This document shows, piece by piece, positions 30,967-61,804 of a stretch of 64,000 nt of DNA. Position 1 is the first letter of the stretch, and every line of letters begins with the position of its first letter. The position numbers and the translations under genes are program-made. The notes under the pieces were generated by a model. It saw only the letters and a list, made by a program, of their open reading frames with translations. It was not told the origin of the DNA and made no database searches. The stretch is from Cryptosporidium bovis (lineage: Eukaryota; Apicomplexa; Conoidasida; Eucoccidiorida; Cryptosporidiidae), in the NCBI GenBank assembly GCA_009768925.2, contig VHIT02000012.1, forward strand, positions 62,001 through 126,000, read 5' to 3'.

Positions 30967-31241
30967 CTATATTTATATATGTTTTGTATGAACTAAATGC
31001 AAAAATAAATATGTATGAATAATTATAAATGAATATGCATAAAAGATCAATAAGTATAAATGCATTTAATTGAGTTAGGTAAAATTTGTCATATTTAAGA
31101 ATATAACAGTACTTAATTAAGTTATTTTTTCTCAAAATTATAATTAATATTTAATAAACTATCCCTTGATAATAAGTAGTAATTTTTATTTTTTCAGTTA
31201 CATAATAGTTTAAAGCGTTGAAAAAGAATTGCAAGTTAAAA

Positions 31242-34200
31242 ATGAATATGAATATTGTAGGTAGGACAGATAAACAATACGACTACTCAAACATTCCGAA
31301 ATGCCTACAGAATGAGTTGGAATTTGTAATAGATAACTTTAAGCAAAAAATAATGAATTTAATGAATAACAATGACTGTGGCATTAAGAGTAGACTGTAT
31401 TCTGGAACCCACACATATAAGAATTTCAATTTCCGTTTGATGGTGTTGCCTAGAGCAAAATTGACAAGCAACGGTTCAATGGAAGGAAGCATATCGGCAT
31501 ATTTAGAGGCAGTGCCATCACCAAATTGGCCCTCAAACTGGATTTGGATAAACACCAAATACACAGTAACATTAGTTAATCAAAAAGATTATAGAAAGTC
31601 ATATTTTATGAGTGATATATTCAATTTCAAAGGTGAGAACAACATGGATGATAAAAAATTCAAATTATTAAGTGAGTCAAGTAATACCTTAGATGAAAAC
31701 AATATGGATTACTACATATCAGCAGGTCCAGAGGCAGATAGAGGTTGGAGTGATTTTTTTAATATAAAGACATTACTTGATCCTAGATCAGGTTTTATGG
31801 ACATTGATAGTGATAGAGTTGTGTTTAGAGCAGGCGTGTTTCCAATGTCGTGCGAACCAAGTAACTTAGGAAAAGGAAACATTGATATGTTAAGTACAGA
31901 GCGTTCGTGTACAGGTCATGTTGGTTTGAGGAACTTGGGAGCCACTTGTTATATGAATTCTTTATTACAATCTTTGTATCATATTGGAAGATTCAGGAAG
32001 GCTGTTTATTCTATTCCCTTGACCAATAACAACTGCTCTGGTAAAATGATCAGCAGTGATTCAAATCAAAGTTTTAGCGACTTATATTTAAAAAACGAGC
32101 CCAATATTGGACAAAATTCTATTTCGAAAAAGGGTCAGTTGAAATCAAACCTTAATGATGGGAAAAAATCTCCAATGATATTATTAGGTGACTCTACAGA
32201 AGATTCGGTTGACTGGAGCAGTAATATTGCAAGAAACTTATTTGAATACGAAAACGACGGAATTGCTAGTTTGGAGAGTATCATATCATCAAGCAATATG
32301 AGTTCTCAGGAACCTGGTAGCGGTGGTTGTTTAAATGATCAAAGTACAAATTATGACAATGGAGATGAAAGTGGAGGCGCTAATGGTAGTAGTGGTATTG
32401 GAAGAAACAACGATAATGTAGGTAATAGTGGTGATCAAATTAAAATAAGTTCTGCCCTTCAGACACTTTTTTATGAACTTCAAACAAGTAATGACGCTGC
32501 GAATTGTCGTGAATTAATGAGATCTTTTGGTTGGGACGCATCAGACGCATTTACTCAGCACGATGCTCAAGAATTGAACAGATTGCTATGTGATCGTCTG
32601 GAAGAGGAAATGAAAAACACAACAGTTGATGGAAGCATTAAAGATTTATTCGAAGGTGAATATGAGAACTTTATCGACTGTTTGGATGTTGATTGCACCT
32701 CTAGAAGAAGAGAAAACTTTTACGATATACAAATTGATGTTGAAGGAGTTGGATCTTTGGAGGAGGGACTTGAGAAATTTATACAAGAGGAAATACTTGA
32801 TGGAGAGAATATGTATGAGGCGGAAGGTTACGGAAAACAGAGGGCAAGAAAAGGGGTTAGATTTCAAAGATTTCCCCCAGTGGTTCAGTTTCATTTGAAA
32901 AGATTCCAGTTCAACATTCAAAGTATGGATATGATAAAGTTAAATGATCATTTTGCGTTTCCTGAGAGACTAGACTTAGCTAATTACATAAATGACAGTA
33001 ACAAAGATAAAAATGGTGACAAGAATAGCAATGAGACTTATATACTTCATACTGTTGTTATACATCAGGGAGATGTACATAGTGGTCACTATTATGCCTA
33101 TATAAGGCCAAATCCCGATTCAAATTGGTATAGATTTGATGATGAGAAAGTAACACTTGTCTCCTCGGCTTCAGCAATAGAAGATAATTTTGGAGGTTTT
33201 GAGTACGATGTATGGGACTACTTGGGCAATCCAGATTGTGAGATCCCGAAAAGACTCAAAACTCACTCTGCGTATATACTTGTATATATTAAGGAAAATC
33301 AGGCTAAAGAATTGCTTGATGAGCCGGTACCACATGAAATAAATCCAGATCTTGTTATTAAATACCAGAAAGAGCAAGAAATTATTAATTTAAGGAGAAA
33401 ATTGAGGAATGATGTAAACGAACATGTTCGCGTTCAGCTTTTGCTTTCCACTAACTATAATGGTTCAAATAGCTCACGCCCAAAAATCTCAAGTATTCAT
33501 ACAAATACCAACACGTTTCCATGGAACTGCATTTTGAAATGTCCGAGAGAATATCCTCTGAGTAAATTTCACCACGATGTTGAAGAAATTTTCATCAAAG
33601 TTAGCGAGAGCAATAAAAATAACAATCTTGTATCACACTTATTTTTGCTCGTAAATTCTGATCACAATGTTAACAATAATATAGGTGGTGCTGGTAGTAA
33701 CCAGAATACTAATAGAGGCGCAGTGATTTTCAATAATAACGGTGAATATGCGGATAATGGACACGGCTTTCTTGTTGGAAGTAACGGAGGTAATACTCAT
33801 CTTTCATTCAGTTTATGCATTTCTTCACCAAACTTGCCGATTCAATTTGGATCTAATAGAGTTCGAAGTGGTCACGGAAGGCAACTACATACCAATAATG
33901 CAGCACCTATGTCATCTGTTAATGATGACATTTACATGTCAGATCTATGCAGAAAATACCATAGAGAGGGTTTATGGGATTCATCGTGCCCTACGTTATA
34001 TATGTGCTTGTATTTAGAGGACTTCTCGAACTTAACTGAGAGGATAATGCCCTCGCTTCCGAATTTAAATCACTCATACTTGGAGAAACGTCAGAAGATA
34101 GAAAACAGCTTGAGGAAATCAAACGAGAGAAGTCAGGTGCTTTTGCTTCTAAGATACTTTGATATATTCGATCCAAAGATAAATGAGTACAGTGAAAATT

Positions 34201-36296
34201 TCTCAAATAATAATGAAATTCAAAACCTCCACAATTTGGGAATAATTATGGTTTCCCCTTCCACAGTTCTTAGAGACCTAGACGACTACGTATTGATGGA
34301 AATTGAGAAGGAGATGCCAAGTATATTTTCAAATATCAAGTCCCATTGTAGAAATAACAAAGTAAACGGTTTCAGTCTCAGGATTTGTCTAGAGGCTACA
34401 AATGGAGCAAATTTTGATTTTAAGGGAGACGGATCATTTTCTTTCTTAAGAGAGGGTGAAAGATGCAATGATAATAGCAATCAGGACGATGACCTTGGTA
34501 AGGATGACGGAAGAGAGACGGACGAAGGTGAATATTTGAACGGAGAAGTGAAAAGTAGAAATGGGAATTGGAACTCAATTGGAGACTTAACGGCTAACAA
34601 TGGATCTTCAAATACTAATAGGTTCTACCCTCTTTTAGATCCACGTTGTACTGTCCAACAGCTACAACTTAATCATGGAAGTAGTTTGATATTTTCGTTC
34701 AATTTGGATGAGTCGGTTATCACGAGAAAAAGAAACGAACTAATGTTGTCTTTAGGAGAAGACATTGGAATTTTTAAGCTCAAGGGATGGTTAGAGGAGG
34801 AACAGGTAAGTTCCACTCTAGATGAATTTGGGAACAAATATTACCCACTTCCAAAAGAACTGAGCAATATAAATTATCCTAAGTTTCCTGCAATCGATTT
34901 TCGTCATTGGTTTGAGAACTATCGGAATAATGTAAGCATTTGTTTCTATCTTTGGAATCCACTAGATGGTGAATACTCTTATGCAGGTACTAACGGTTTT
35001 AATATAACGCAAAATCCAGAAAGCAACAACACCTTAACTTTCAACGGAGTTAATGACAACAATAGGAATTCATCTTCAGTGATTGAATACATGCAAACAA
35101 GTAACAATCCAATAATAAGGTCATTTTCAAAGTACAATATAAAATCTGTTCATAATCTGACTCTTGATCTTCGCTGGCCCATCGTCAAATCATGGATATT
35201 TATATCGGAAAAACTAAAAATAGACCCGAGATGTTTTGCCTTGGTTAAAAACTCCCTTAATCCATACGACGCCTCACTAATAACTTTGTATTCAATAATG
35301 CAGACCCAATTGCGTTATGGCAGCACATATTCCCTCTTTAAGACTCTTTGTTTATCAAATTACTACTGTAACTCCAACATTAAGAACTTAGGAACTACAA
35401 ATCCGTCGTTTCAGTTACCTTCACAATTCTCGATAATGGCAGTCGAGCTTTCCGGAAGATCATTCTACAATTTAAGTCAACCAAATAAACAACTTATTTC
35501 CCTCTCAATTGTGGATTGGAACGATAAAACCCCAAATAAAGAAAGGAAGGATTGTGCAAACAAAATCAAATACAATAGTGGTGTTAAGATAAGATCCCTT
35601 GTACAGATAGACATAAATAAGTCAGTAGAATCCTTAATCGAGGATATTTCCAATGGAATAAATGTGATTGCATATAGAGACTTTAACACTTGTAAAGATG
35701 CAAATGGTGGCAAGATTGACTTAGCTGAAATATTTTCAAGCGACAACAGTTCTGCTCTTCCTAGACTCAGAATACTGGAGTTCAGCAATAACAACACCGT
35801 TGGGTTGTACAAAGGGAATGAGAAACTTTCGAATATCTTAAACATTGAAGACAGGTCCAGGGGAGAGGGGATACTTTCCATTGGTTACATTTCGGAAGGA
35901 CTCAGACTTGAAAGAGATTTCACATATGAGGAACTCAAAGGACTTGAAAGTGGTGATTTATTCACTGTTTTAGTTATTCAGGATTCCAGAGACTTTGAAT
36001 ACTCTTCAGGCAATGCATTTGTCGTTACCATAACTGCTGAATCAAAATTAATTGACCTAAAACATGTAATTCAAAATCAATTTAAACTAGAAAACATTTC
36101 AAAGTGGAAATTTTACAGATTCGAATTCAAAAATTCACAACTTATAAGAGATAACGATGTACTTGTTCCCAGTTTCAACAAAAACTTTGATATTAATGTA
36201 TATGGATTCTCACCTAACATTATTATTTTAACACAGCTTCAACAGGCAACACAAAGTAACCATAGAAATAACTCATCCAGACCGCTAAGAATCTGA
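31242..36296 (+). CDS. USP7/HAUSP-like ubiquitin carboxyl-terminal hydrolase
   Basis: The first ATG of the frame is at 31242, giving 1684 residues. Residues about 20-200 form a MATH (TRAF-like) domain with FRLMVLPRAK and a tail VVFRAGVFP. The USP core follows. The cysteine box GLRNLGATCYMNSLLQSLY has Cys236, QHDAQELNRLLCD is the second landmark, and the histidine box GDVHSGHYYAY has His616. WYRFDDEKV carries the third triad residue near Asp633. All are intact, so the enzyme should be active. A Ser/Asn/Gly-rich insertion of about 170 residues sits between the cysteine box and QHDAQEL. After the core come ubiquitin-like repeats as in USP7 and plant UBP12/13 (about 690-1680). These enzymes remove ubiquitin from nuclear regulators. 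Confidence 0.93.
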   Translation: MNMNIVGRTDKQYDYSNIPKCLQNELEFVIDNFKQKIMNLMNNNDCGIKSRLYSGTHTYKNFNFRLMVLPRAKLTSNGSMEGSISAYLEAVPSPNWPSNWIWINTKYTVTLVNQKDYRKSYFMSDIFNFKGENNMDDKKFKLLSESSNTLDENNMDYYISAGPEADRGWSDFFNIKTLLDPRSGFMDIDSDRVVFRAGVFPMSCEPSNLGKGNIDMLSTERSCTGHVGLRNLGATCYMNSLLQSLYHIGRFRKAVYSIPLTNNNCSGKMISSDSNQSFSDLYLKNEPNIGQNSISKKGQLKSNLNDGKKSPMILLGDSTEDSVDWSSNIARNLFEYENDGIASLESIISSSNMSSQEPGSGGCLNDQSTNYDNGDESGGANGSSGIGRNNDNVGNSGDQIKISSALQTLFYELQTSNDAANCRELMRSFGWDASDAFTQHDAQELNRLLCDRLEEEMKNTTVDGSIKDLFEGEYENFIDCLDVDCTSRRRENFYDIQIDVEGVGSLEEGLEKFIQEEILDGENMYEAEGYGKQRARKGVRFQRFPPVVQFHLKRFQFNIQSMDMIKLNDHFAFPERLDLANYINDSNKDKNGDKNSNETYILHTVVIHQGDVHSGHYYAYIRPNPDSNWYRFDDEKVTLVSSASAIEDNFGGFEYDVWDYLGNPDCEIPKRLKTHSAYILVYIKENQAKELLDEPVPHEINPDLVIKYQKEQEIINLRRKLRNDVNEHVRVQLLLSTNYNGSNSSRPKISSIHTNTNTFPWNCILKCPREYPLSKFHHDVEEIFIKVSESNKNNNLVSHLFLLVNSDHNVNNNIGGAGSNQNTNRGAVIFNNNGEYADNGHGFLVGSNGGNTHLSFSLCISSPNLPIQFGSNRVRSGHGRQLHTNNAAPMSSVNDDIYMSDLCRKYHREGLWDSSCPTLYMCLYLEDFSNLTERIMPSLPNLNHSYLEKRQKIENSLRKSNERSQVLLLLRYFDIFDPKINEYSENFSNNNEIQNLHNLGIIMVSPSTVLRDLDDYVLMEIEKEMPSIFSNIKSHCRNNKVNGFSLRICLEATNGANFDFKGDGSFSFLREGERCNDNSNQDDDLGKDDGRETDEGEYLNGEVKSRNGNWNSIGDLTANNGSSNTNRFYPLLDPRCTVQQLQLNHGSSLIFSFNLDESVITRKRNELMLSLGEDIGIFKLKGWLEEEQVSSTLDEFGNKYYPLPKELSNINYPKFPAIDFRHWFENYRNNVSICFYLWNPLDGEYSYAGTNGFNITQNPESNNTLTFNGVNDNNRNSSSVIEYMQTSNNPIIRSFSKYNIKSVHNLTLDLRWPIVKSWIFISEKLKIDPRCFALVKNSLNPYDASLITLYSIMQTQLRYGSTYSLFKTLCLSNYYCNSNIKNLGTTNPSFQLPSQFSIMAVELSGRSFYNLSQPNKQLISLSIVDWNDKTPNKERKDCANKIKYNSGVKIRSLVQIDINKSVESLIEDISNGINVIAYRDFNTCKDANGGKIDLAEIFSSDNSSALPRLRILEFSNNNTVGLYKGNEKLSNILNIEDRSRGEGILSIGYISEGLRLERDFTYEELKGLESGDLFTVLVIQDSRDFEYSSGNAFVVTITAESKLIDLKHVIQNQFKLENISKWKFYRFEFKNSQLIRDNDVLVPSFNKNFDINVYGFSPNIIILTQLQQATQSNHRNNSSRPLRI

Positions 36297-43524: not shown

Positions 43525-46500
43525 TTATACATTGCTTAATTGCGTATCAAAGTAGCTCATCAATGACAGCCTTGTTTGTTCATTTTCACTAATATTTGAA
43601 TCTACCGTCTCGAATGAAATATATGGATAATCGTGCCACTGAGACAAATCATCATTTAATAAGTCAATATAACTCGTTTTCTCAACACCTACATCTCTAT
43701 TATCGTGTCCATCTACATTTTTTTTTTCAGAAATTCCAAAGTAATCACATGATTCATCCCAATATCTTATTAATGACTTTATTAACTTTTTGTCTATATA
43801 TATTCCTCTATTAGGTAGTTTATCCTTATATTCCACTTCTGAACCAAATAAGTCATTATTCTCATTCATATTGTCTCTACTATTCATTTCATCACAGATT
43901 ACTGTATTGGTATCTTCATTTTCACTATCATAAACAAATCTCTCACTGAATTTTTTTTCTATTTTTGATATTTCATTAATACCATTCTCAACACTAATAA
44001 TATGTTTCAATAAACAACCAGGTTGTTTCATCCTAGAACATGATTCTGATATTTTCCACTTTTTTCTCTTATGGTCATTCATCATACCACCAACAAAATG
44101 ACGATGTTCCAGATAGTTATTTGCCATCTCCCTAGAAACCGGTAACAATGGTAAACAAAATATATGATTGGATATTTTGTTTACCAAACTTCTTAGTAAT
44201 GCTAATTTATCATCTTTATTATCGATAAATTTACCTATTTGCCTGTCAATCCTCGACATGTGTCCGTTAATTTGATTTGTTTCATCATTAAATTTTCCTT
44301 TTGGAACAAATGATAAGTACTCTTCCAATGTATAATTATAATCAAATTCCTTAGATCCAATAATGTCGAAAACTGGTTTTTTTATCTCTTTATCAAATAT
44401 AATTTCCGTATTAACCATAGTATTTTCATTTACATTGTCCTCGAGCTCGTCTTTAAATTCAAAATATCTACAAGAACATAGTGGAAATGGTTGCGTCACC
44501 AAAGACGGAATATGTACTATATCATCTTTTTTATAGTAGTCAACTGATATAAAATCATCTGACCATAATATTTTTGGTCTTGTTTGAAACTCTTTGTGAT
44601 AATCAAAACCATTTGTCATTGGCAATTGAGACGATAGCTTATTCGAATACTCTTCATCCATTTCACATTCATTATTACTAAGGAGCCAATTTATTAACTC
44701 TAATCCACTATACACCTTAGAATTATAATACTTTCTTTTTGTTAATTGCTCGCTCTTAACTTCTAATTCATCGTTTATAACTTCACTATCACTAGTTATA
44801 CTGTTTGGATAAGTTATCAATGCTCTCCTCATCTTTAAATAACTATTATTACTAGTATCGTCGCTACTCTTGATATTTGCATACAAATCTACCAAAGCAC
44901 CTTTTAATTCTTTGCAAAGATAGACCTCACTAATGTTATTATAATAGTAATTTGAAAATTCCTTCTCTTCATATTTGCTTTCACTGTCATAATTACTTAT
45001 TAAATCTAGTGTTATTTCTGTAACCCTTCCACAACTATTCAATGCTAAAAAAATTAAACTCTCGACATCACCATTAGTGTCTTTACCTTCACTTAATCCA
45101 ACTAATTTATGCTTCGACGTTGATTGTGAATATAAGATTGCTTTTTCCTCTTTTCCAATATTTTCATCACTAGAAATAAATTCGTTTATTGCTTTATAGT
45201 TAACAGATAATACGGTAATTCCCGAGTAACCATGGAAGTATTGCGATAAAAAATTGTCATCTATAGAATATCTGTCCATAATATTATCCAAATAGTCTAT
45301 TGATGACTCCATTAATTGCGTGTTCATAGGATAATAGTACATTCTATCTTGTTCTATATCCCATTTACTCATACCCAATTCTTTCACAAATTCTACTCTA
45401 ATATTAAAATGCTCATCAACATCACTACCACTATACTCCACTGTTAGTAGAGAATATATAATCATTGGATAATTTGAACAATACAATACTAGGCCACTTT
45501 TAACTTTGAGTCTATTCTCGTCACCATTACTTTTTATTCTCGGGAACACCCAGTCTACATACCTAAATCTACATGTTGAATTTCCTATACTCTCTGTAAA
45601 TGGAATTGAAAATTCACATAGTGGTATCGTTGAATTCTGATTCAAATCTATAATAATAACTTTGCTGTTTCTTGACTCTATGAAGGCTAAAATACTCGAA
45701 TATATTGGATGAAGTGCTAATCCCGTCACATTTACATAAGATGTATTTTTATTTTTCAATGTTTGAAGTTTCATTAATCTTTCAGTATAAGACACCATCA
45801 CTTTTAATGTATTATATTTGTCCTCATCACAAGAGTTTTTATTATCTTCATCCTTATTTGGATACACTCTTTTTAGTCTACGGTCCAAAGGTGTTTCCAA
45901 CTCTAATATATAAATGCATTTACCACCTATAATATATGAATTTGAATTGTAACCATATGAAAAACATTGTATAACTTCTTGCTCAAACTTATAGTAGTCA
46001 TTTAGATTGTATATTTCCTTAAACTCATTACCTGGATTTAATGAAAACTTTATTATTAACCTATTTGACAGTAATATTGACACTTCCAAATAATCATAAA
46101 AACTGGTTGCAATTCCATATATATTCGTATCAGAACAAAACTTTATTTTATTAATCATATATTCATCATTACCCAGTATAGACTTGAATATGTCCTCAAC
46201 GCTACTTTTCAGTACTATTTCATACTTTATGTTTGACTTATTATCCAAAGACTCAACTGCAGCTTTATCTATACCATCGCTTACTTCCTCCAAACTCAAT
46301 TTCAGTATCGCTAATTCATTTAAAGATATCAAATATACATATACTCCCTTATTTATATTGTCATAATAATCATAACTCGCCTGCAACTTTAAATCTTTTA
46401 TCTCATTTTCTGTCACATTTTTAATTGTTAACAGTCTCTCAAAACAATATTCAATATTGTCATTTTTAAAATCTTTTGTATCAAAGTCACTTTTGTTCAT

Positions 46501-46779
46501 AACCAACCTTAAAACCTCTATCCCATTTCCATTTGAATCGTATTTTTGAATCAGTATTGGACCATTTATTCCCAAATCTACACCATTACATGTTTTTAAA
46601 CAAGATTCAATTTCATTATCTATTATTCTAGACGAATATATATTATAACATAAATGGGACGACGAGTAATTTTTCTCCTTTGGAATCAATGTATTTGTCA
46701 ATAATGATGTTATATTTGGGCCTCTATGACGCCAAACTACTTTTGAACCATCATATGGAATTTGCACCACTTTAACCAT
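43525..46779 (-). CDS. Large conserved-looking protein of unknown function, possible beta-propeller
   Basis: The first ATG of the frame is at 46779, giving 1084 residues. The first 560 residues have alternating beta-rich blocks (for example GLALHPIYSSILAFIESR, SKVIIIDL, GLVLYCSNYPMIIYSLL) like a degenerate WD-type propeller. A linker and a helical C-terminal region follow (DKLALLRSLVNKISNHIF, LLPVSREMANNYLEHRHFVG). There are no membrane segments. It is acidic and Asn/Ser-rich. I do not recognise the family. A TAF1C/Rrn6-type Pol I factor or another propeller scaffold is only a guess. It is convergent with TSR3. The promoter carries TGGCGCC at 47136-47141. Confidence 0.5.
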   Translation of the reverse strand: MVKVVQIPYDGSKVVWRHRGPNITSLLTNTLIPKEKNYSSSHLCYNIYSSRIIDNEIESCLKTCNGVDLGINGPILIQKYDSNGNGIEVLRLVMNKSDFDTKDFKNDNIEYCFERLLTIKNVTENEIKDLKLQASYDYYDNINKGVYVYLISLNELAILKLSLEEVSDGIDKAAVESLDNKSNIKYEIVLKSSVEDIFKSILGNDEYMINKIKFCSDTNIYGIATSFYDYLEVSILLSNRLIIKFSLNPGNEFKEIYNLNDYYKFEQEVIQCFSYGYNSNSYIIGGKCIYILELETPLDRRLKRVYPNKDEDNKNSCDEDKYNTLKVMVSYTERLMKLQTLKNKNTSYVNVTGLALHPIYSSILAFIESRNSKVIIIDLNQNSTIPLCEFSIPFTESIGNSTCRFRYVDWVFPRIKSNGDENRLKVKSGLVLYCSNYPMIIYSLLTVEYSGSDVDEHFNIRVEFVKELGMSKWDIEQDRMYYYPMNTQLMESSIDYLDNIMDRYSIDDNFLSQYFHGYSGITVLSVNYKAINEFISSDENIGKEEKAILYSQSTSKHKLVGLSEGKDTNGDVESLIFLALNSCGRVTEITLDLISNYDSESKYEEKEFSNYYYNNISEVYLCKELKGALVDLYANIKSSDDTSNNSYLKMRRALITYPNSITSDSEVINDELEVKSEQLTKRKYYNSKVYSGLELINWLLSNNECEMDEEYSNKLSSQLPMTNGFDYHKEFQTRPKILWSDDFISVDYYKKDDIVHIPSLVTQPFPLCSCRYFEFKDELEDNVNENTMVNTEIIFDKEIKKPVFDIIGSKEFDYNYTLEEYLSFVPKGKFNDETNQINGHMSRIDRQIGKFIDNKDDKLALLRSLVNKISNHIFCLPLLPVSREMANNYLEHRHFVGGMMNDHKRKKWKISESCSRMKQPGCLLKHIISVENGINEISKIEKKFSERFVYDSENEDTNTVICDEMNSRDNMNENNDLFGSEVEYKDKLPNRGIYIDKKLIKSLIRYWDESCDYFGISEKKNVDGHDNRDVGVEKTSYIDLLNDDLSQWHDYPYISFETVDSNISENEQTRLSLMSYFDTQLSNV

Positions 46780-47135
46780 TTTAAAATTATTTCTAATATA
46801 AGTCAAAAATACCCCTCACATACCTCGAGCTCACCAAATCCATTGATTTGGACTGTTTTGTTTTATTATATTAACTTTAATTCAATTTAACTTATCATTT
46901 AATGCCCCCTTCTTCCGTTTATCACCTCTTAATATACTTACGCAAACTTATTGTCATATTAGTTACTAAATTTAATTAATTAGCACTTCTCACAAAAGCT
47001 ATCCCTGACCAATTATGCAAAATAAACATATACAAGCGATTCATCTACTAATAATGTGAGTGATATTGATGAAAAGTCTAAAACAACTCTCTTAAGCAAC
47101 TCATCATCTTCTATTATTTCATCTATATACATAAT

Positions 47136-51127: not shown

Positions 51128-54100
51128 TTAATAATTTTCAATAAAACCTGCTGCCAACTCAAACTTTCTGTCTTTATCGCTGTCAAAATCTACCTCAAAC
51201 AAACCGCTAACAAGTTTACAATTGTTTTTTATAAAATCACTTACTTGGTCCACTAATAACCACTGAGATTCATCTGTTCCGGCATCCTTTATTAATAACA
51301 ATTTAAATATATCATTTCCGGTTTTAATAGATGCTTGAACTTCATTTCCAGAAATATTAAATTGCCAAATAGGTAATTTTGTTGTTTTTACTTCTATTAG
51401 ACTATGTATAATTACTTTGTTCTGTGATACTTTTGCACCTTGATCTATATATTCTCTTATTATTATAAAGTCAAATGGTAAATAACTCTCATTTATTGAA
51501 TTTAACCAAACTAATTTAATTAAGCTTGTATCTGTTTCCTTAAATAGTTTGATCTTACACCTTATTAGTTTATTATCCATTTCACTTTTAACATTATTCT
51601 TTTCATCATCTATTTTCATACTCTGAATACTCATCAAGTCTTTTAATATATCATCATTGTCATTATTTGCATCCATATTATAGTCCTCTTGATCATGATT
51701 GTTGTTGAATATTATATATTTAGATAAATAATCCTCAATTAATTCAAATTTTATTGATTTCAATGTAAATATTCTTGATATTACATTTGGTAATATTTCT
51801 TCAAATGAAACTTTTTCTCCCCAAATACCTATTCTCATACTTATTTCTTCTATTGTCAGTGTATTACCATTTTCGTTTATATCATCATTTATTAGCGACA
51901 TTGGGTATGATCTTACATATCCTTTTATTAAGTCATCCAAATTATTATTTTTTGTAATTTCATTTACTTGACTCAAACTTGATACACCATTATTTCTTGT
52001 TATATCAGCTAAAAAGTCTTGTTTATTTATTTCTCTCTCTTCCTGAATTATACAATTTTCTGTTGAACATTGTTCTAAAAACTCTAGGCCTATTTTAATT
52101 ATTGTGTCAGATTTAATTTCTTCCTCATTATTATTGTTGTGATTGTTGTTAATTAGAGAGTTAGATGAAAATACCGTTAGATGTTTAAGCAATAACATTA
52201 TTCTTTGTTGTGTAGATAATATAAGCAATTCATACAAGTCAATTCCAATAATCTTACTTATTTCAAAACTTTCTTTTATTGGATCATTCAACAACTTATA
52301 CAAATCAATTAATTGATCTTTTTTGTCCATGTTATTATTTATAAATAAAATTGATGACTTTTTACCCGGAATTTTTTTAAATAGTACTCCTGTTTTTGTT
52401 TTGCTTCTTTTTGGTAAATTGAATCTTTTTTCTTTTAACTCAAATTCTAATTCTATATTGTTTACTTCAACCTCAAATGTGTTCATGAATATCATTAACC
52501 AATCTACCAATAATAGTGATATTTCGTTCAATCTATCATAATTCCTATTTGATATGGTAATGTTAATATTACTATTATTTTTGTTACTATTTCCATTATT
52601 TTTATTATTGTTATCACTATAGTTTGCAGTATCTTTATAATTTGAGCTATTTCCAAAAGCAAAATTATCTTTTATAGGCTCCAAAGGAATGTAATTTATG
52701 TCACACATAAAATTACTAATCATCTCATCTTCCGAAATACAGTATATACATGAATTCTTGTCATGAACATCACATTTTGAATCATTTACGGACTTCCTAT
52801 CATTTAATATTGATAACACAGATAAATATATATCTAATGATTTGTACTTAAGTAATAGTAAAAATGTTCCCCAAAATTCTAGTGTTAACCATAATTTGTT
52901 GTCTAATTTATGTACTCTTTTATAATTATTGTTAAAACCTTTTGTTGTGTTATGTTTTACATTATAACATTCTGTTAGTGTTTTTAATTTAAATATTTCT
53001 TTGTAAAAAAAATAAGAGTTTGTATTTGGAGTTAGGGCTAAAGGTATGGTAAATTTATCATTTTTGTAATCCCTAATAGAAATATCCTCCAAACAACAAT
53101 CGCGACGATTATAAAACTTGAAGCCACCTTTTATCGGTACTTTACCAGAATCGCAAAATTGTTTCCACCATTGTAACTTTTTTCTTAGGCTTAATTTATG
53201 GTAAATATCAATAAATTTGTTTATTGACACACTAATAAAAGATTCAAACTTCATCCTCCCTTCTTTAGATCTGTCTTTTGATAAATTTGGACACTCTTTC
53301 AACCATAAATATGCGTAATGTTGATGCGTAGGTTGTTCTGACACAAGAGAAAGAAAAAATGGCATTAGTCCTTTCAATCTCTCTTTTTTAATAAATTTGT
53401 TAAATATTATAAATGTGCCATGAAAAAAGTCATATGGATCCGACCAAACCATTGTATTGTAATCAATATTCACCCAGTTATAAATTGTGCTTTTCATTAA
53501 AGGAATGTATAAGAGTGAATCTTTGTAAAACGCTTTTTTTAAATCAAGCGATATATCAAAATCACTTTGTTGCCCTATTAGTTGATATATATCACACAAA
53601 GTATCTATAAGTGATTTATTTCTATCATTATTGGCACTAGTTTCATGAATTATTCTCCGTTCACTAATACCCATCCACTCTTTATATAATGTTTTCCACC
53701 ATTCTGACTGGATTAATTTGCTTTCTGTTATTCCAAAACCAAATGAAGCTAATTCAATTAAATGATCAATTTCTGTTTCAACTAGTGGGTATGACATTGC
53801 AGAAAAATAACTATTCATCTTATCCATATTTTTGTTATTATTTTCAAGTTCTCCCTTAATAATTTTTAGTACTTTAATTAAAGATATTGTCGAAATTTGC
53901 GTTGTTACACCCAAATTTTCTAGTGTCTCCATTACTCTTCTTAACTCGTCACCTTTGTCCTCCTCTGTTCTTGTAGATGTAAACCTATTAGAAATCTTAC
54001 CTTCCTCATTTAATGTGGATGGCAGCTGTACTTTGTATGCATTTCTGAGAGTCACAGGAAGTAAATTTAACATTGTTTTCGATATGTATTTTGGAATACC

Positions 54101-57100
54101 TGCTAATTCTATGTCTGGAACAAGTAGCTCACTTGGTTTGCTTAATAACGGATCCTTAATTCTCTCACTTTCGATCATGTTATTACCAATATATGAATAA
54201 TAATAGTCCCTGCTGTTTAGTGATATTGGAATCCAAGAATAGTCCGGTAAAACACTGTCTAAAAAATATGAACTATATGAACGTCTTGAATATTCATTTG
54301 CAACCTGAATTAAAGCACCTGCTCTCATTAAGTATACTAAATGCTTGCAATAAAAACAACTCGACGAATTTAATGGATATGTATTTTTGTCAACCATCCA
54401 ACTTAGTAAAACAGAATCAGTTTTTGGTGGCAATCTATCAAAATTGCAACCTACATACCACTGTTCAAGTAAATTTATAAATTTATTCATAAATGACCTG
54501 AAGTACTGGCCATTTAAATCGTATTTACTTCGGTTTGAATGACTCTGTACAATATAATCCGAAGAAATTTCAACAAAATTAAATCTATCACAAACCTTTG
54601 AAAAAACCCACTCAACTAATGGTGGCCATAATGGCGGAACTATAGTTAGTCCTTTATATTCGAAATTTTGATTAAAATTATTCATATCATCAATAATTCC
54701 ACTTTCATACTTTGATTTATTTAATACATTCTTTTTCAAAATATTATTCTTTGATCTTTCCCAATTTGAGTGCAATGTCAGTAATGAAGTTAGTGATTTA
54801 CTTACTTGCGACATTCTAAGTGAAACAGAAACCGGTTGAACCATATCATTAATTTCAGGATCATTTTCACCAAACTTTAATTTAGAATCGCAGTTCACGC
54901 AAATTTTTTTACTATTTATAAGTGAGCATCTTGCAAATTTATCTTTATTTAGTAACTCTTCTTCGTTTGCATAACTTTTTGGTGGATCTTTATTATACAT
55001 TAAAGCCTTTAAAAACGAAGGTGAATATGTTTGAACTACTATTGGCAACTTCATCAATATTCTCGAATCGAAGTCTATTAGATTCTTGTCCTCAATAATA
55101 AGGGGCGTTATTTTTAATAATATCTTTTGTATATCCTCATTTACTGCATATTCCCAGACCTTTCCTATAAGTTGGTCGATTTCCTCAATTATCCATTTAT
55201 AAAATCTATTCTCTGTTACAACCTCTATTTTGAATGTGTTTTCTATGAAATTTCTTATTTTATAATCACCCAAATTATAAACTTTCTCATTGAAAAAGTC
55301 AATTGGGCAAACACTGTTTATTATTTCACTATAATCGTCGTAATCATTAGCTCTCCAATACTCCGTAAATGATTCATCAGGAATAAACACCTTTTTTACT
55401 TTTAAATCATTTAACGTTATTCTGCCACTACTATTTGTTGGAATTATTTTCAAATTGCAACAATAATCCTCAAATTTATTAAACCAGTCTTTTTCTTCCT
55501 TCTCATTATACAAATAAAAATATAATATTAAAAATACTGTATCGTCATTTATCTTATCTAGTAAATTGTTTGCACTATTTGAGCTTAAAATATTAAAAAT
55601 ATTTATATGATTAATATTGTAAGATAAAAATGATTGTGATATTACCGATCTTAATAATTGTATTATTCTTGTTTCTGTGTAATGCATGCATGTTTGCCCA
55701 CATAATAATATAGGATGCAATACCGGTATAGTATCATAATTAATATATTTTAGTAATTCAATATGCAATTTACATATTGAGCAATGATTATCATCGTCAT
55801 ATTTTGCATTTAAACATAACTCTGCTGTTTGAATGTTCATGTAAACTTGATCACATTTGCAATATGATCCATCAATTTTGCAAATGAATGGTTTATTTGA
55901 GAACTCATTTGAGCATTTAATTGACAATATCGAATTATATTCATTTGATTTTTCTGGGATCCAACTAAATTTTATCAATTCTGAGATTTTTATCTTATAA
56001 CAACCGTGCAAGTTTAACCCACCATCAAATTTATCATAAATAATATTGTTTTCAGACAAAATACTATCAATAAATAGTGTGTATTCGTGGTTAATTACTT
56101 CGATAACTTTGGAGTACAAGTAATTATTGTTAATAAAACAAGCAATAAAGTCTGTTATTTGATTTTCAAATACTATTTTTAATATATATTTGTTCCATTC
56201 ATTATCAATAATATAATTTTCTCTATTTGCTGTTAATATTAAGTCCTGTATATTAACGTGGAATGGAAGATGTAGCTTATTATCTAGGGGGAATGTGCAG
56301 AACAGTTTTCCATTTATCCTTTTTTGCTTACCAAAAATAGAAGATCCCAAAGAGAGTGCGGTATTATTCAATGAATCACCACTTATTTTATCACAAGTTA
56401 GATTTCGTTTGTTATTCTTGTGATATAATGGCAATGCAATTGACCAATTTGTTGACTTTCTTGAAACTCTATCTCTAAGTATAGAGTAATTATCAATTAA
56501 AAATTCAGATTCAGTTGGTATATTAATATTCCAATTGATCACCATAAAACACGAAGAAACCGAATTTTCCTTCAGTATCTTTGATTTGGAACTGTCTAAA
56601 TCATCCTCATCAAATTGTCTTACTTCTAGATTAACAATGTGAAATCCGTTTATTTCAGGAAAAGGATTACATGTAGTTTTATCATCATTTGTACAAGCAT
56701 TAATTGATTCAGTTATTCTTGGAATGGATTTTAAAATATTCACGAACAATGTTCTTCTTAACAATGGAAAAACTACATTCTTACCAGGTGAACAAAACCC
56801 TGAATTTTTTCTCGGTTCAACATCAATTACTATTGATTTTATATTTCTCAAAAAAAGGAGGAGATCTGGAACAAATATCTCATGTATGGCAGATAATAAT
56901 GTCGGAAATTTTCTTTTATTATCGCTTCCAAACGGAAGAAAGTGCACGGTTCCCTTTGAGAAACAATTCTTATTCACATCTTCTTTTGTCTCTATCCACG
57001 GAACACCATAATTTAGTATATTATTATGTATAGTTTTAACAACTTCTGGAAAATCTTTTTCATCCTCCCATTTTGGTACTATATACCTCAAGCCTATATC

Positions 57101-57547
57101 TTCGTCTGGTTCACTTGAAAACCTTATTGAATAGTCCCCACTATATATTCCAGGTTTGTTTGTAATTTTAAAGAACGACATATAACCTATACCTTTCTCA
57201 CCTGTGAAAAATCTCGATTCGGAATTATTTTTCGAAGAATTTCCTATATCACATACGGATTCAATGTTTCTAGGTGTCATACCAACTTCGTTTATGTGTA
57301 CAACCAAACAATCCCATCTAAGCAAGATATATATTATAGGACCGTCAATACCCGATTCTTTATTGTCAACAAAATTAGAGTCATCTGCATTTTGTAATAT
57401 TTCCAATAAAACTCTTCCGAAAGACGAGTAAAGCTCGTTTGTGAGTATCCAAATGGATCTATCCTGTCTTTCTCTCTGCGACTCATTTGAGAGAAATAAG
57501 TTCTTCCTTATTTCATTAATGTGCTCTTTGGCCTTTTCAGCTTGCAT
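51128..57547 (-). CDS. NOV (NO VEIN)-like protein: GHKL ATPase plus DUF3883 nuclease-like domain
   Basis: A single 2139-residue frame. Residues 30-200 form a Hsp90/sacsin-type ATPase fold. The N box is LLEILQNADDSNF (Glu49, Asn53, Asp55/56), the region before the lid reads HINEVGMTPRNIESVCDIG, and the glycine motif is GEKGIGYMSFFKIT (116-129). This variant is the one found in plant NOV and sacsin-like proteins. A 1,800-residue region follows with several Cys clusters (CKIDGSYCKC, HCSICKLH, CVNCDSK, FYCKH) and Asn-rich loops. The C-terminus (about 2015-2110) reads PFDFIIIREY, then SLIEVKTTKLP (Glu2052, Lys2054) and FNISGNEVQAS. This is the DUF3883 PD-(D/E)xK-like pattern. Known: NOV is a nuclear factor in Arabidopsis. 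Activity here is inferred. Confidence 0.85.
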   Translation of the reverse strand: MQAEKAKEHINEIRKNLFLSNESQRERQDRSIWILTNELYSSFGRVLLEILQNADDSNFVDNKESGIDGPIIYILLRWDCLVVHINEVGMTPRNIESVCDIGNSSKNNSESRFFTGEKGIGYMSFFKITNKPGIYSGDYSIRFSSEPDEDIGLRYIVPKWEDEKDFPEVVKTIHNNILNYGVPWIETKEDVNKNCFSKGTVHFLPFGSDNKRKFPTLLSAIHEIFVPDLLLFLRNIKSIVIDVEPRKNSGFCSPGKNVVFPLLRRTLFVNILKSIPRITESINACTNDDKTTCNPFPEINGFHIVNLEVRQFDEDDLDSSKSKILKENSVSSCFMVINWNINIPTESEFLIDNYSILRDRVSRKSTNWSIALPLYHKNNKRNLTCDKISGDSLNNTALSLGSSIFGKQKRINGKLFCTFPLDNKLHLPFHVNIQDLILTANRENYIIDNEWNKYILKIVFENQITDFIACFINNNYLYSKVIEVINHEYTLFIDSILSENNIIYDKFDGGLNLHGCYKIKISELIKFSWIPEKSNEYNSILSIKCSNEFSNKPFICKIDGSYCKCDQVYMNIQTAELCLNAKYDDDNHCSICKLHIELLKYINYDTIPVLHPILLCGQTCMHYTETRIIQLLRSVISQSFLSYNINHINIFNILSSNSANNLLDKINDDTVFLILYFYLYNEKEEKDWFNKFEDYCCNLKIIPTNSSGRITLNDLKVKKVFIPDESFTEYWRANDYDDYSEIINSVCPIDFFNEKVYNLGDYKIRNFIENTFKIEVVTENRFYKWIIEEIDQLIGKVWEYAVNEDIQKILLKITPLIIEDKNLIDFDSRILMKLPIVVQTYSPSFLKALMYNKDPPKSYANEEELLNKDKFARCSLINSKKICVNCDSKLKFGENDPEINDMVQPVSVSLRMSQVSKSLTSLLTLHSNWERSKNNILKKNVLNKSKYESGIIDDMNNFNQNFEYKGLTIVPPLWPPLVEWVFSKVCDRFNFVEISSDYIVQSHSNRSKYDLNGQYFRSFMNKFINLLEQWYVGCNFDRLPPKTDSVLLSWMVDKNTYPLNSSSCFYCKHLVYLMRAGALIQVANEYSRRSYSSYFLDSVLPDYSWIPISLNSRDYYYSYIGNNMIESERIKDPLLSKPSELLVPDIELAGIPKYISKTMLNLLPVTLRNAYKVQLPSTLNEEGKISNRFTSTRTEEDKGDELRRVMETLENLGVTTQISTISLIKVLKIIKGELENNNKNMDKMNSYFSAMSYPLVETEIDHLIELASFGFGITESKLIQSEWWKTLYKEWMGISERRIIHETSANNDRNKSLIDTLCDIYQLIGQQSDFDISLDLKKAFYKDSLLYIPLMKSTIYNWVNIDYNTMVWSDPYDFFHGTFIIFNKFIKKERLKGLMPFFLSLVSEQPTHQHYAYLWLKECPNLSKDRSKEGRMKFESFISVSINKFIDIYHKLSLRKKLQWWKQFCDSGKVPIKGGFKFYNRRDCCLEDISIRDYKNDKFTIPLALTPNTNSYFFYKEIFKLKTLTECYNVKHNTTKGFNNNYKRVHKLDNKLWLTLEFWGTFLLLLKYKSLDIYLSVLSILNDRKSVNDSKCDVHDKNSCIYCISEDEMISNFMCDINYIPLEPIKDNFAFGNSSNYKDTANYSDNNNKNNGNSNKNNSNINITISNRNYDRLNEISLLLVDWLMIFMNTFEVEVNNIELEFELKEKRFNLPKRSKTKTGVLFKKIPGKKSSILFINNNMDKKDQLIDLYKLLNDPIKESFEISKIIGIDLYELLILSTQQRIMLLLKHLTVFSSNSLINNNHNNNNEEEIKSDTIIKIGLEFLEQCSTENCIIQEEREINKQDFLADITRNNGVSSLSQVNEITKNNNLDDLIKGYVRSYPMSLINDDINENGNTLTIEEISMRIGIWGEKVSFEEILPNVISRIFTLKSIKFELIEDYLSKYIIFNNNHDQEDYNMDANNDNDDILKDLMSIQSMKIDDEKNNVKSEMDNKLIRCKIKLFKETDTSLIKLVWLNSINESYLPFDFIIIREYIDQGAKVSQNKVIIHSLIEVKTTKLPIWQFNISGNEVQASIKTGNDIFKLLLIKDAGTDESQWLLVDQVSDFIKNNCKLVSGLFEVDFDSDKDRKFELAAGFIENY

Positions 57548-58307: not shown

Positions 58308-59744
58308 TTAATTGAAGGTTATTGTCTTTAATTCAAATGAATTGATGTCCAAAAGTACAATACATGGATTTGTAGAAAAATTTGGAATAGTAAAACAAAG
58401 AGGTCCATCATTTGGAAATCTATACGAGTCAAATTTAAATTGATTTCCAGAAAATAATACCTGAGGGAATTCATCGTCTTGATAGTTAAGAATGAAAGGA
58501 TCACAATCTGAGAAAGGATGACACGGTATTGCGTCTGGACAAACTGGAGCTAGATTTCTAGATGAAATGCAAAACTTTAGAGCTTCAATTGGACTTTTGT
58601 ATGAAGTATAAAGCGATAATTTTGCTATAGTTTGTCCAGTTATACCAGAAATTCTGACGTTATTAATTCTGAACAAACATGGATTTGTGAATGAAACTAG
58701 TGACTGATATTTTCTTGCATGCTTAAAAATATATGGTTGAAATGCTGGTTGGGGTAGAGAAATTGGAACAGGATCCTCATCTCCAGGAATAATTGCCACA
58801 GATATAGAAGACGCAAGTTGTGATATAAATGAGTCAAATATTTGAAGTCTTTTCGAGAGGATATCATTGTTAACAATGAGTTTAGTCCCAGTTCCGGTAT
58901 TTGTTTCTTCAGCTGTATCTAATAATTGAATGGAGTTACCTGCAATTACCAACTGGGATATTCTAGAAGATATAAATTTTTGCTCATCATTAAACGCAAC
59001 CCCGAGTATAAAGTCTCTTAAAAGTTGTAATGATAACGAATTCTCATAATCTTGACCTATATTCATTCCAGAAATAAAACCAACATAAATTGGCATACTT
59101 GAGTTTAATAAACTGTTATTTTCTCTAATTAATATCTTTTCTGGAACTATAGAGAATGTATAATCCTTGACTAAAAAGTTACCGCAAGAAACTCGGCATC
59201 CCTTTAATGCAATCACAGTCCCAGATAATAACTCTTTATGCGATATATTGCTTTCGACTACACTATTGTCTATCAACAAAGGCACTCTAGAAAAGCTATC
59301 CTCTAGATAAACTTCATCGTCATCACTTATGTAATCACCATCATCCCTTTCACTATTTGGATTGTAAATGTCATGAAGGTATTCGTCCAATATTGTCGGC
59401 CTTCTCTTCATTTCTTTTGTTATTAATCCAATAATCACGCATTCCACACCCATCTTTATGTCTTTTAATTCACTGATTATTGGTATTTTACCTTCATTTT
59501 CTGCTTTCACTTCTACATTTCTATCAACCGTATTTTCCTCAGATTCTTCAACCAAACTTTCTGAAATATAACAATTCCATTTAAGTAATGCAGATTTTTG
59601 TAAAAATGGCAACAAACCTTTAAATCTAGAGAAACAAAGGTGACAATATTGATACGGAAAGTCAAACTTCTTTACTTTGAACCTCTCACACTCATCTACT
59701 AAGTTAACTTCTGGTCTTGTTAATTCTTTTTTTTCTAACTTCAT
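58308..59744 (-). CDS. POLD2: DNA polymerase delta small subunit (POLD2)
   Basis: A 478-residue protein, the usual length for this B-family subunit. An N-terminal OB-type region is followed by the non-catalytic phosphoesterase domain. The best-matching blocks are AIIPGDEDPVPISLPQPAFQ (family AVIPGDEDPTNYTLPQQPLH), TNPCLFRINNVRISGITGQT ([20 protein letters not shown]), and FSDCDPFIL then PQVLFSGNQFKF (KTDPFIF, PHVYFCGNTPSF). POLD2 holds the catalytic subunit and the other subunits of Pol delta for lagging-strand synthesis. The start at 59744 is the first ATG (MKLEKKELTRPEV). It is divergent from SLD5, a second replication gene, with three E2F-like sites between. Confidence 0.94.
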   Translation of the reverse strand: MKLEKKELTRPEVNLVDECERFKVKKFDFPYQYCHLCFSRFKGLLPFLQKSALLKWNCYISESLVEESEENTVDRNVEVKAENEGKIPIISELKDIKMGVECVIIGLITKEMKRRPTILDEYLHDIYNPNSERDDGDYISDDDEVYLEDSFSRVPLLIDNSVVESNISHKELLSGTVIALKGCRVSCGNFLVKDYTFSIVPEKILIRENNSLLNSSMPIYVGFISGMNIGQDYENSLSLQLLRDFILGVAFNDEQKFISSRISQLVIAGNSIQLLDTAEETNTGTGTKLIVNNDILSKRLQIFDSFISQLASSISVAIIPGDEDPVPISLPQPAFQPYIFKHARKYQSLVSFTNPCLFRINNVRISGITGQTIAKLSLYTSYKSPIEALKFCISSRNLAPVCPDAIPCHPFSDCDPFILNYQDDEFPQVLFSGNQFKFDSYRFPNDGPLCFTIPNFSTNPCIVLLDINSFELKTITFN

Positions 59745-60532: not shown

Positions 60533-61804
60533 ATGGAGTACTTGTGTGAGGATAGCAATTTTGACAAAGGTAAGTTCTCTATGTTTATTTTCTCCTTTCA
60601 ACTGTTTTGAATATTTGTGTATTTGAAACATGAAGTATGTTCGTCAAACTATCAAGGAGAAAGGTTAATTTTGGAAGAATAATGAAGAAACATTTAGTTT
60701 ATAACAGATAAATAAATACTTTGTATTTCTTTATTTTTTCCATAATTTGCCTTAGATGAATGCAAAAACCTTTACTTTGACTTGATTTACATTAATTAAT
60801 ATATTTAGAAAACCTTAATGTAAATAATATAGGAAAGCACGAATTGGATTATATAGATAATATTTATAGCGTAAAGAATATAGGGATTACTGAAGAGGAA
60901 GAATTAGCCCATATAAGAAAATCCCATGAAACCATATTTTCAGTAAGTCATTCTTTTCCACTTGTTGGAATACAAAACAGCTTTTATAACTCCGAAAAAA
61001 ATCATCACTAATTAGGCATGGATAAACGAGCTAGTATCACCTGAATTGCTAGAATACTATGAGAATGAGATAAAATCTCTTTGTTATTCAATAAACAAAG
61101 AAAAAGAAAAGCAAATAATGTTGAGAAGCGAAAGAAACTACCGTGACATGATTGAGAGAGTTGAAAGTGATCTTATAAATATTCACATTTATAGATCAAG
61201 TTGTGCACTTAGAATGTATTTAAGACAGAGAATTCTAAAAATATCGGAATATCCTGATTTTTCAATAGCAAATTCAAGACTTGAAGGTGAGAGAGATGAA
61301 AACGAGATGTGTAATGAAGGCGATAATGAAAATGAAAACAAAACAAATGGAAGGTCCTTTCCAAATATAAGTGAAGAAGAGGCAACGTTCGCATTAAAAC
61401 TTTCGAGACTTCAGTGGAAATACTTGGATGATGTGGTTTCAAAGATGAAAAATACACTAGCAACTGATAATAATGTTCCCATTCCCTCCCCTTCTTTTCA
61501 CAGAGTTGTGCGTTTCCAATGCAAAGATTCCGCTGAAAATGACCGTTTAGAACTTGGATCTTTGGAAAACAGTGTACCTACGCAATTTGAGGATTGTCTA
61601 TACAACAAAGATTCGAATAACGATTTAGACGGTATCGAAAATTTGCCTGGAAGCAATTCTGACTCCCAAAATGAAACAGAACAAACTATAGATATTGAAA
61701 AAGGAAAAATTTACACGTCCAAGTATGAAGATATTAGAAATTTTCTCATTCAGGGTCGTGTTCAACTTTGGCCGTGGCCACCTATAATTTCAAATAGAAA
61801 ATAG
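60533..61804 (+). CDS. SLD5: GINS complex subunit SLD5 (three exons)
   Basis: Exons 60533-60569, 60809-60942 and 61016-61804 join to 319 residues. Donors are GTAAGT in both introns; acceptors are TTTAG and TTAG; phases are 1 and 0. The join gives IGITEEEELAHIRKSHETIF, then SAWINELVSPELLEYYENE, which matches the SLD5 start (AWMNEKFAPELLE). Later blocks are RSSCALRMYLRQRILKISEYP (family SYLRCRLEKIEKYP) and the C-terminal IDIEKGKIYTSKYEDIR then LIQGRVQLW (IDLEKGSQHLMRYRTIA, GAVQLI). GINS is part of the CMG helicase at replication forks. About 80 residues before the final block are an acidic, Asn-rich insertion. The tiny first exon could be read differently, but exons 2 and 3 are firm. Confidence 0.92.

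Follow-up and report, generated by a model that had tools for sequence, protein, structure and literature searches.

A candidate ATP-gated nuclease of the SACS(GHKL)-DUF3883 superfamily conserved across Cryptosporidium

The 64,000-nucleotide stretch of DNA analysed here (the window) comes from Cryptosporidium bovis, which parasitises the gut of cattle, and carries a gene in which an N-terminal GHKL/sacsin-type ATPase and a C-terminal NOV_C (DUF3883) domain occur in that order, with intact residues, genus-wide conservation and a nuclease-like model of the C-terminal part. We consider it fairly probable that the product of this gene is a SACS(GHKL)-DUF3883 superfamily nuclease gated by ATP, belonging to a Cryptosporidium lineage distinct from the NO VEIN-type gene of the same genus. 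By sequence, the superfamily would also include NO VEIN, as well as bacterial proteins named TmtA in PADLOC, which we take to be Tiamat. The nuclease reading is supported by a NOV_C match over its cut-off, by candidate catalytic residues kept in 11/11 sequences, by the nuclease-like model, by collinear segments shared with bacterial proteins and by the precedent of VcSduA. The gene is real and conserved, its product is probably an active ATPase-nuclease, and it is already partly annotated. Its retention in a reduced genome would suggest a needed role.

The open frame runs from ATG to TAA in one exon, an in-frame TAA lies 9 bases upstream of the ATG, and at the window's stop-triplet frequency of 7.2% the chance of a frame 2139 codons long is about 1e-69. 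All ten relatives from the first protein search (2077-2423 aa) align over 99-100% of the window protein, so that no intron needs to be invoked; the single intron-free gene of 2139 residues proposed by the sequence-only reading is thus exact in coordinates, strand and length. Among the Cryptosporidium relatives (8/10), identity ranges from 96% (C. xiaoi) down to 35% (C. muris). The features of the gene are as follows.

51128..57547, minus strand: whole gene, 2139 aa (frame, upstream stop, full-length alignment)
56768..57472, minus strand: GHKL/sacsin-type ATPase core, residues 26-260, with E49, N53, N86-E87-G89, G116-G121 and G199-T200 (profiles, BLASTP, hhalign; residues invariant in 11/11)
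56138..56347, minus strand: residues 401-470, a further conserved part of the ATPase region, with invariant Q434, D435, T439, N441, R442 and E443
55688..55816, minus strand: Cys/His cluster, residues 578-620, with invariant C578, C589, C592, H595, H611 and C620; possible zinc site (alignment)
54218..54670, minus strand: most conserved block, residues 960-1110, 52% invariant columns, with invariant C1064, C1067 and H1069 (alignment, hhalign)
51194..51877, minus strand: residues 1891-2118, the NOV_C/DUF3883 domain, interrupted by an acidic, variable insert at about 1950-1994 and PD-(D/E)xK-like when modelled (Pfam, genome search, model)
51386..51472, minus strand: predicted nuclease core, D2026 ... 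E2052-V-K2054, with E1911 in the preceding helix (model, alignment)

The GHKL motifs of the ATPase (E..N, NxExG, GxxGxG and GT) are all present: E49, N53, N86, E87, G89 and G116-G121 are identical in 11/11 Cryptosporidium sequences, and G199 and T200 are invariant in the alignment of the window protein with its ten relatives. Two curated ATPase models score under their cut-offs and one just over: HATPase_c_3 reaches 15.8 bits against 25 in the Pfam scan, the NCBIfam sacsin-like model 40 bits against 50, and SACS 33.9 bits against 32.8 in a genome search, the last being unlisted by hmmscan of the protein at E<=1. We nevertheless regard the predicted ATPase as secure through BLASTP to a paralogue on a second contig, C7 (7e-17), and through hhalign to a profile of bacterial-type proteins (E 1.4e-30, probability 99.8), in agreement with the N-terminal GHKL ATPase of the sequence-only reading.

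At the other end of the protein, NOV_C (PF13020) scores 28.6 bits against a Pfam cut-off of 22.1, and 34.2 bits in the genome search. E1911, D2026, E2052 and K2054, which together form the usual PD-(D/E)xK set, are identical in 11/11 sequences, as are G1907 and G1910, and the stretches adjoining the conserved ATPase and nuclease residues vary freely. The DUF3883 domain with a PD-(D/E)xK signature, recognised earlier from the letters alone, is therefore borne out, with Glu2052 and Lys2054 where they had been placed, with D2026 and E1911 completing the set and with the Glu/Lys pair kept in all 11 sequences. A published survey names DUF3883 as a novel REase domain in the part available (PMC3710099). 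The model of residues 1891-2139 has a PD-(D/E)xK-like topology (pTM 0.72), and its top VIA-align neighbours are nucleases, at Z values of 6.5 or less, a range in which unrelated folds can score; Foldseek returned no match to this model at E<=0.001, the best being a restriction enzyme at 0.19. The sequence-only reading is contradicted neither by the structural comparison, in which the match is modest, nor by the conservation of the Glu/Lys pair. With a profile that we built from 14 bacterial-type proteins, the window protein scored 8.7 bits (E 0.007), the C. parvum orthologue 17.9 and the C7 paralogue 42.9, the window NOV_C giving the lowest score of those compared. What speaks against the nuclease reading is this weakest NOV_C score, together with the modest fold match and the fact that only the ATPase segment is strong in hhalign; the N-terminal and unspecific TmtA match described below also counts against it.

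Constraint is uneven along the protein. Across the 11 sequences, 44% of columns are invariant in residues 1-260, 52% in 960-1110 and 30% in 1994-2118, with low values of 11% in 470-760 and 2% in the acidic insert at 1950-1994. The peak of conservation lies outside both the ATPase and the nuclease, in the block that overlaps the segment aligned with bacterial relatives at residues 978-1147 (hhalign probability 22). The four Cys clusters noticed earlier in the middle region are confirmed as CxxC pairs at 589, 883, 1064 and 1600; two are intact in 11/11, and each of the other two lacks one Cys in the C. muris protein. A model of residues 560-1620 has a mean pLDDT of 38.9 and a pTM of 0.30, with values mostly >=50 only at about 649-796.

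Could the protein instead be a chaperone? The gene is not without annotation: seven of the ten relatives, C. parvum included, are publicly annotated as sacsin-like HSP90 chaperones, the C. muris protein being 'uncharacterized'. On this alternative the substrates of the ATPase would be proteins, with the C-terminal domain serving as a platform for binding or persisting as a remnant that has no catalytic function. The public labels agree with it, as do the closest solved structures by sequence, which are those of sacsin's ATPase-like domain (E 0.004 to 0.09), and the NCBIfam sacsin-like score given above. Sacsin and the window protein do share an ATPase-like module; however, sacsin's DnaJ, HEPN and repeated module are absent from the window protein in a Pfam scan at E<=1, the nuclease residues identical in 11/11 would not be needed by a remnant, and the best profile relatives among the matches listed carry DUF3883. 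We therefore consider a chaperone role unlikely.

The predicted ATPase-nuclease is also related to bacterial proteins. When the 11 Cryptosporidium orthologues were aligned by hhalign with the 14 bacterial-type proteins, 8 of which come from named bacteria, five collinear segments were found, at residues 6-761, 978-1147, 1445-1529, 1684-1728 and 2008-2104 (from N to C, E 1.4e-30, 0.001, 0.16, 0.53 and 5e-5; probabilities 99.8, 22, 0.4, 0.1 and 67), and three more weak segments fall out of order. The same comparison with the C7 family gave probabilities of 99.5 for the ATPase segment and 9 for the nuclease segment. Bacterial-type GHKL-DUF3883 proteins share with the window protein the domain order and, in Nostoc P0153, the string GIWGEK with which the nuclease domain opens. 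They match PADLOC TmtA models, P0153 over its whole length, whereas the window protein, which is about 500-750 aa longer and has the acidic insert in its nuclease, matches TmtA at its N-terminus only: 122 bits, confined to residues 5-463, with the models partly covered (the best at 4-207 of 1302, the second at 9-370 of 1655) and no full-length match among the PADLOC models. We rejected an assignment of the window gene as Tiamat by TmtA score, as controls score higher (fungal proteins 255 and 250 bits, double-SACS bacterial-type proteins 248 and 205, a fish protein 488). Because other SACS proteins outscore the window protein, its TmtA match is evidence of family only.

What surrounds the bacterial genes? 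Frames carrying ATPase and nuclease together numbered 28 among at least 80 loci, and 20 of these 28 loci were used, and with them 74 of the 100 neighbour proteins listed; proteins longer than 1500 aa were left out of both test and control sets. At these 20 bacterial and archaeal two-domain loci, the 74 neighbours match 151 PADLOC models (E<=1e-10), against 48 models for 77 neighbours of DnaK in the same 20 genomes, the models overlapping and matches being counted per model, not per protein or gene. The best 25 of the 151 include BrxL, DrmA, DrmD, type III restriction enzyme, JetC, viperin, NERD-UvrD and DndA/SspA, whereas of the best 25 of the 48 in the control, 19 are PD-T4-6, every one with two members. 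The DndA/SspA match may represent an ordinary cysteine desulfurase. This contrast points toward defence, as a direction and not as a rate, and it upholds the earlier suggestion of a superfamily link to prokaryotic defence. Unlike the bacterial GHKL-DUF3883 genes with these defence-like neighbours, a eukaryotic gene lies in no defence island. Tiamat is located in Pseudomonas defence hotspots according to the available part of one report (PMC12629846), and a review, likewise available in part, lists its mechanism as unknown (PMC12926258). Within the literature library searched, no two of Tiamat, sacsin, NO VEIN and tmtA were found paired, the co-occurrences being of one of them with anti-phage, and one paper there mentions both Cryptosporidium and sacsin; nor in the literature searched was the fish NO VEIN gene name found together with interferon.

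A six-frame search of the C. bovis genome for NOV_C found two places, the window gene and a gene on contig C7. The latter is a single 2160-aa frame with SACS and NOV_C both over their cut-offs, matches C. bovis FG379_000671 at 100% identity across 501 scored residues, and carries near its N-terminus a CxC...CxH cluster that is identical in 9/9 orthologues. The cluster is similar to a SWIM finger, a name that one orthologue bears; Pfam finds no SWIM domain in the C7 protein at E<=0.1. Both lineages recur across Cryptosporidium, and no other apicomplexan is named among the matches listed (the best 120 of 132 and the best 120 of 954, from searches that need shared five-letter words). A first tree had 71 rows; a second, of the ATPase region, had 62 after three metagenome, one protist and five fungal rows were dropped. 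In the 62-row tree the C7 lineage groups with 12 animal rows and one plant family (support 97/95), and the window lineage stands outside this NO VEIN-type group as a separate long branch. The label NO VEIN follows source names (e.g. P0215, NO VEIN-like), Arabidopsis NO VEIN lying outside the sample, and the group's four plant rows are without NOV_C in precomputed domains. Forcing the window and C7 lineages together costs 13.5 log units (AU p 0.028), and constraining the window lineage to lie within the NO VEIN-type group costs 10.5 (AU p 0.040); because the groups were chosen after the first tree, and because of long branches and uneven letter make-up, we take these rejections as weakly disfavouring.

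The position of NO VEIN in the tree is taken by the C7 gene, and the window gene is therefore probably not the genome's counterpart of plant NO VEIN, as which it had been read. Plant and animal proteins of the NO VEIN type (SACS PF25794 and NOV_C PF13020) do resemble the window protein in having a GHKL/sacsin-type ATPase followed by a far C-terminal NOV_C, with the common NOV_C motifs G-x-x-G-E, D and E-x-K, but many of the animal members among the matches listed contain an OST-HTH, which the window protein does not. The pairing attributed earlier to plant NO VEIN does occur there, but is not confined to plants, both domains being listed in fish, molluscs, corals, Hydra and bacteria. Gene transfer from a plant is a further alternative, raised by the words 'likely plant origin' in the C. 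parvum annotation and compatible with any function. In its favour, the top non-Cryptosporidium match among those listed is a cactus protein (5e-31), and a tree constrained to unite the window lineage with a second plant family (P0011, P0130, P0131, P0132) is worse by 0.43 log units (AU p 0.452). Yet the uniting fork was supported by 67/3 in the first tree, all four plant proteins are without NOV_C in precomputed domains, and GC and GC3 of the window gene match those of the window's other genes, although an old transfer would look alike; we judge a plant origin improbable. Although the two domains in the same order would suit a developmental or chromatin factor with the role of plant NO VEIN, which in work by Tsugeki from 2009 is said to act in auxin-dependent patterning, such a role is quite doubtful, since it is the C7 gene that sits with the NO VEIN-type proteins, in a tree whose rejection of the window lineage is weak and was made after a first tree.

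How might a predicted ATP-gated nuclease work? The genus Cryptosporidium carries a dsRNA virus, and defence against this virus or foreign nucleic acid would fit the gene, as would an internal genome or RNA task. From the features described we would predict ATPase and nuclease activity, dimerisation, gating and a bound metal. We envision that the N-terminal GHKL modules take up ATP and close on each other in a dimer, that the long middle part holds or senses the substrate and so chooses the target, and that only with ATP turnover may the C-terminal PD-(D/E)xK domain cleave nucleic acid; E1911, D2026 and E2052 would hold a metal, and K2054 would be the catalytic lysine. Gating by ATP is proposed because of VcSduA, a GHKL-type Shedu protein that protects against phages and whose authors, in the text available, put forward the hypothesis of a nuclease controlled by its ATPase (PMC12137116). 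As described there, VcSduA and the window protein both have an N-terminal GHKL ATPase and a C-terminal PD-(D/E)xK nuclease, but the nuclease is DUF4263 in the former and DUF3883 in the latter, so that the two are likened by architecture, not by sequence. In the parts of the literature found, the target cut by SACS and NOV_C proteins is not stated.

It is conceivable, if rather improbable, that Cryptosporidium defends itself innately, against the virus that it carries or foreign nucleic acid, by means of two ATPase-nucleases that arose separately and are designed like bacterial anti-phage proteins, one of them NO VEIN-type and the other particular to the genus. In the part available of one report, the C. 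hominis orthologue of cgd8_1610 (Sacsin-like HSP90 chaperone domain) is one of ten highly polymorphic loci, with 6.0 SNP per kb (PMC4407392). Going by the annotation name, this locus and the window gene are most likely orthologous; the polymorphism would fit an arms race, and relaxed constraint is equally compatible from polymorphism alone. Two public names are called into question, that of the window gene as a sacsin-like chaperone and that of the C7 gene as a superfamily I helicase, a name borne by 4/9 of its orthologues among the matches listed. The window gene gains in interest because the reduced genome has two distinct members of the superfamily. If the defence reading were true, it would mean restriction-like immunity inside a protozoan parasite. 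The SACS and NOV_C pairing is found near bacterial defence genes and also in plants and animals, and a compact parasite keeps two such genes genus-wide, with intact active-site residues; the limited setting of Cryptosporidium may help in choosing, for the eukaryotic branch, between an enzyme of defence, one of genome maintenance and a chaperone.

Conservation of the predicted ATPase-nuclease encoded at 51128..57547 (minus strand) peaks within the following stretch:

52688-54670, minus strand: residues 960-1620 of the ATPase-nuclease, part of gene 51128..57547

There, residues 960-1110 have 52% invariant columns (identical across 11 Cryptosporidium sequences), the highest conservation in the whole protein, and contain no named domain in a Pfam scan at E<=1. 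The C. bovis genome also encodes a second protein of this architecture, on contig C7:

L003 (the C7 stretch):2042-8524, minus strand: second SACS+NOV_C gene, no intron, 2160 aa

Its product contains a SWIM-like CxC...CxH cluster. Four of the nine Cryptosporidium proteins of this family are labelled "superfamily I helicase", yet the domains of the C7 protein are SACS and NOV_C.

Three further features of the window were as follows:

58308-59744, minus strand: delta-type DNA polymerase small subunit, with DNA_pol_E_B and DNA_pol_D_N domains, immediately upstream of the ATPase-nuclease gene
61046-61801, plus strand: 252-aa frame matching the C-terminus of GINS subunit SLD5 (22.3 bits, below the cut-off of 27)
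31218-36296, plus strand: large ubiquitin hydrolase (UCH, weak MATH match)

The SLD5-like frame opens with TTG and is thus perhaps part of a spliced gene. The ubiquitin hydrolase, whose UCH and weak MATH matches resemble USP7, has the highest GC3 (0.332) of the 17 frames compared; its frame likewise opens with TTG, so that the real start may differ. The 1093-aa frame at 43525-46806 (minus strand) gave no Pfam match at E<=0.01.

Among the 74 neighbours of bacterial GHKL-DUF3883 genes, six matched the NERD+UvrD helicase model (matches being counted per model), and at three of the loci (L019, L020 and L021) the next frame downstream overlaps the end of the GHKL-DUF3883 gene by about 10 bases. Possibly, the GHKL-DUF3883 gene and its downstream neighbour constitute a two-gene defence unit.
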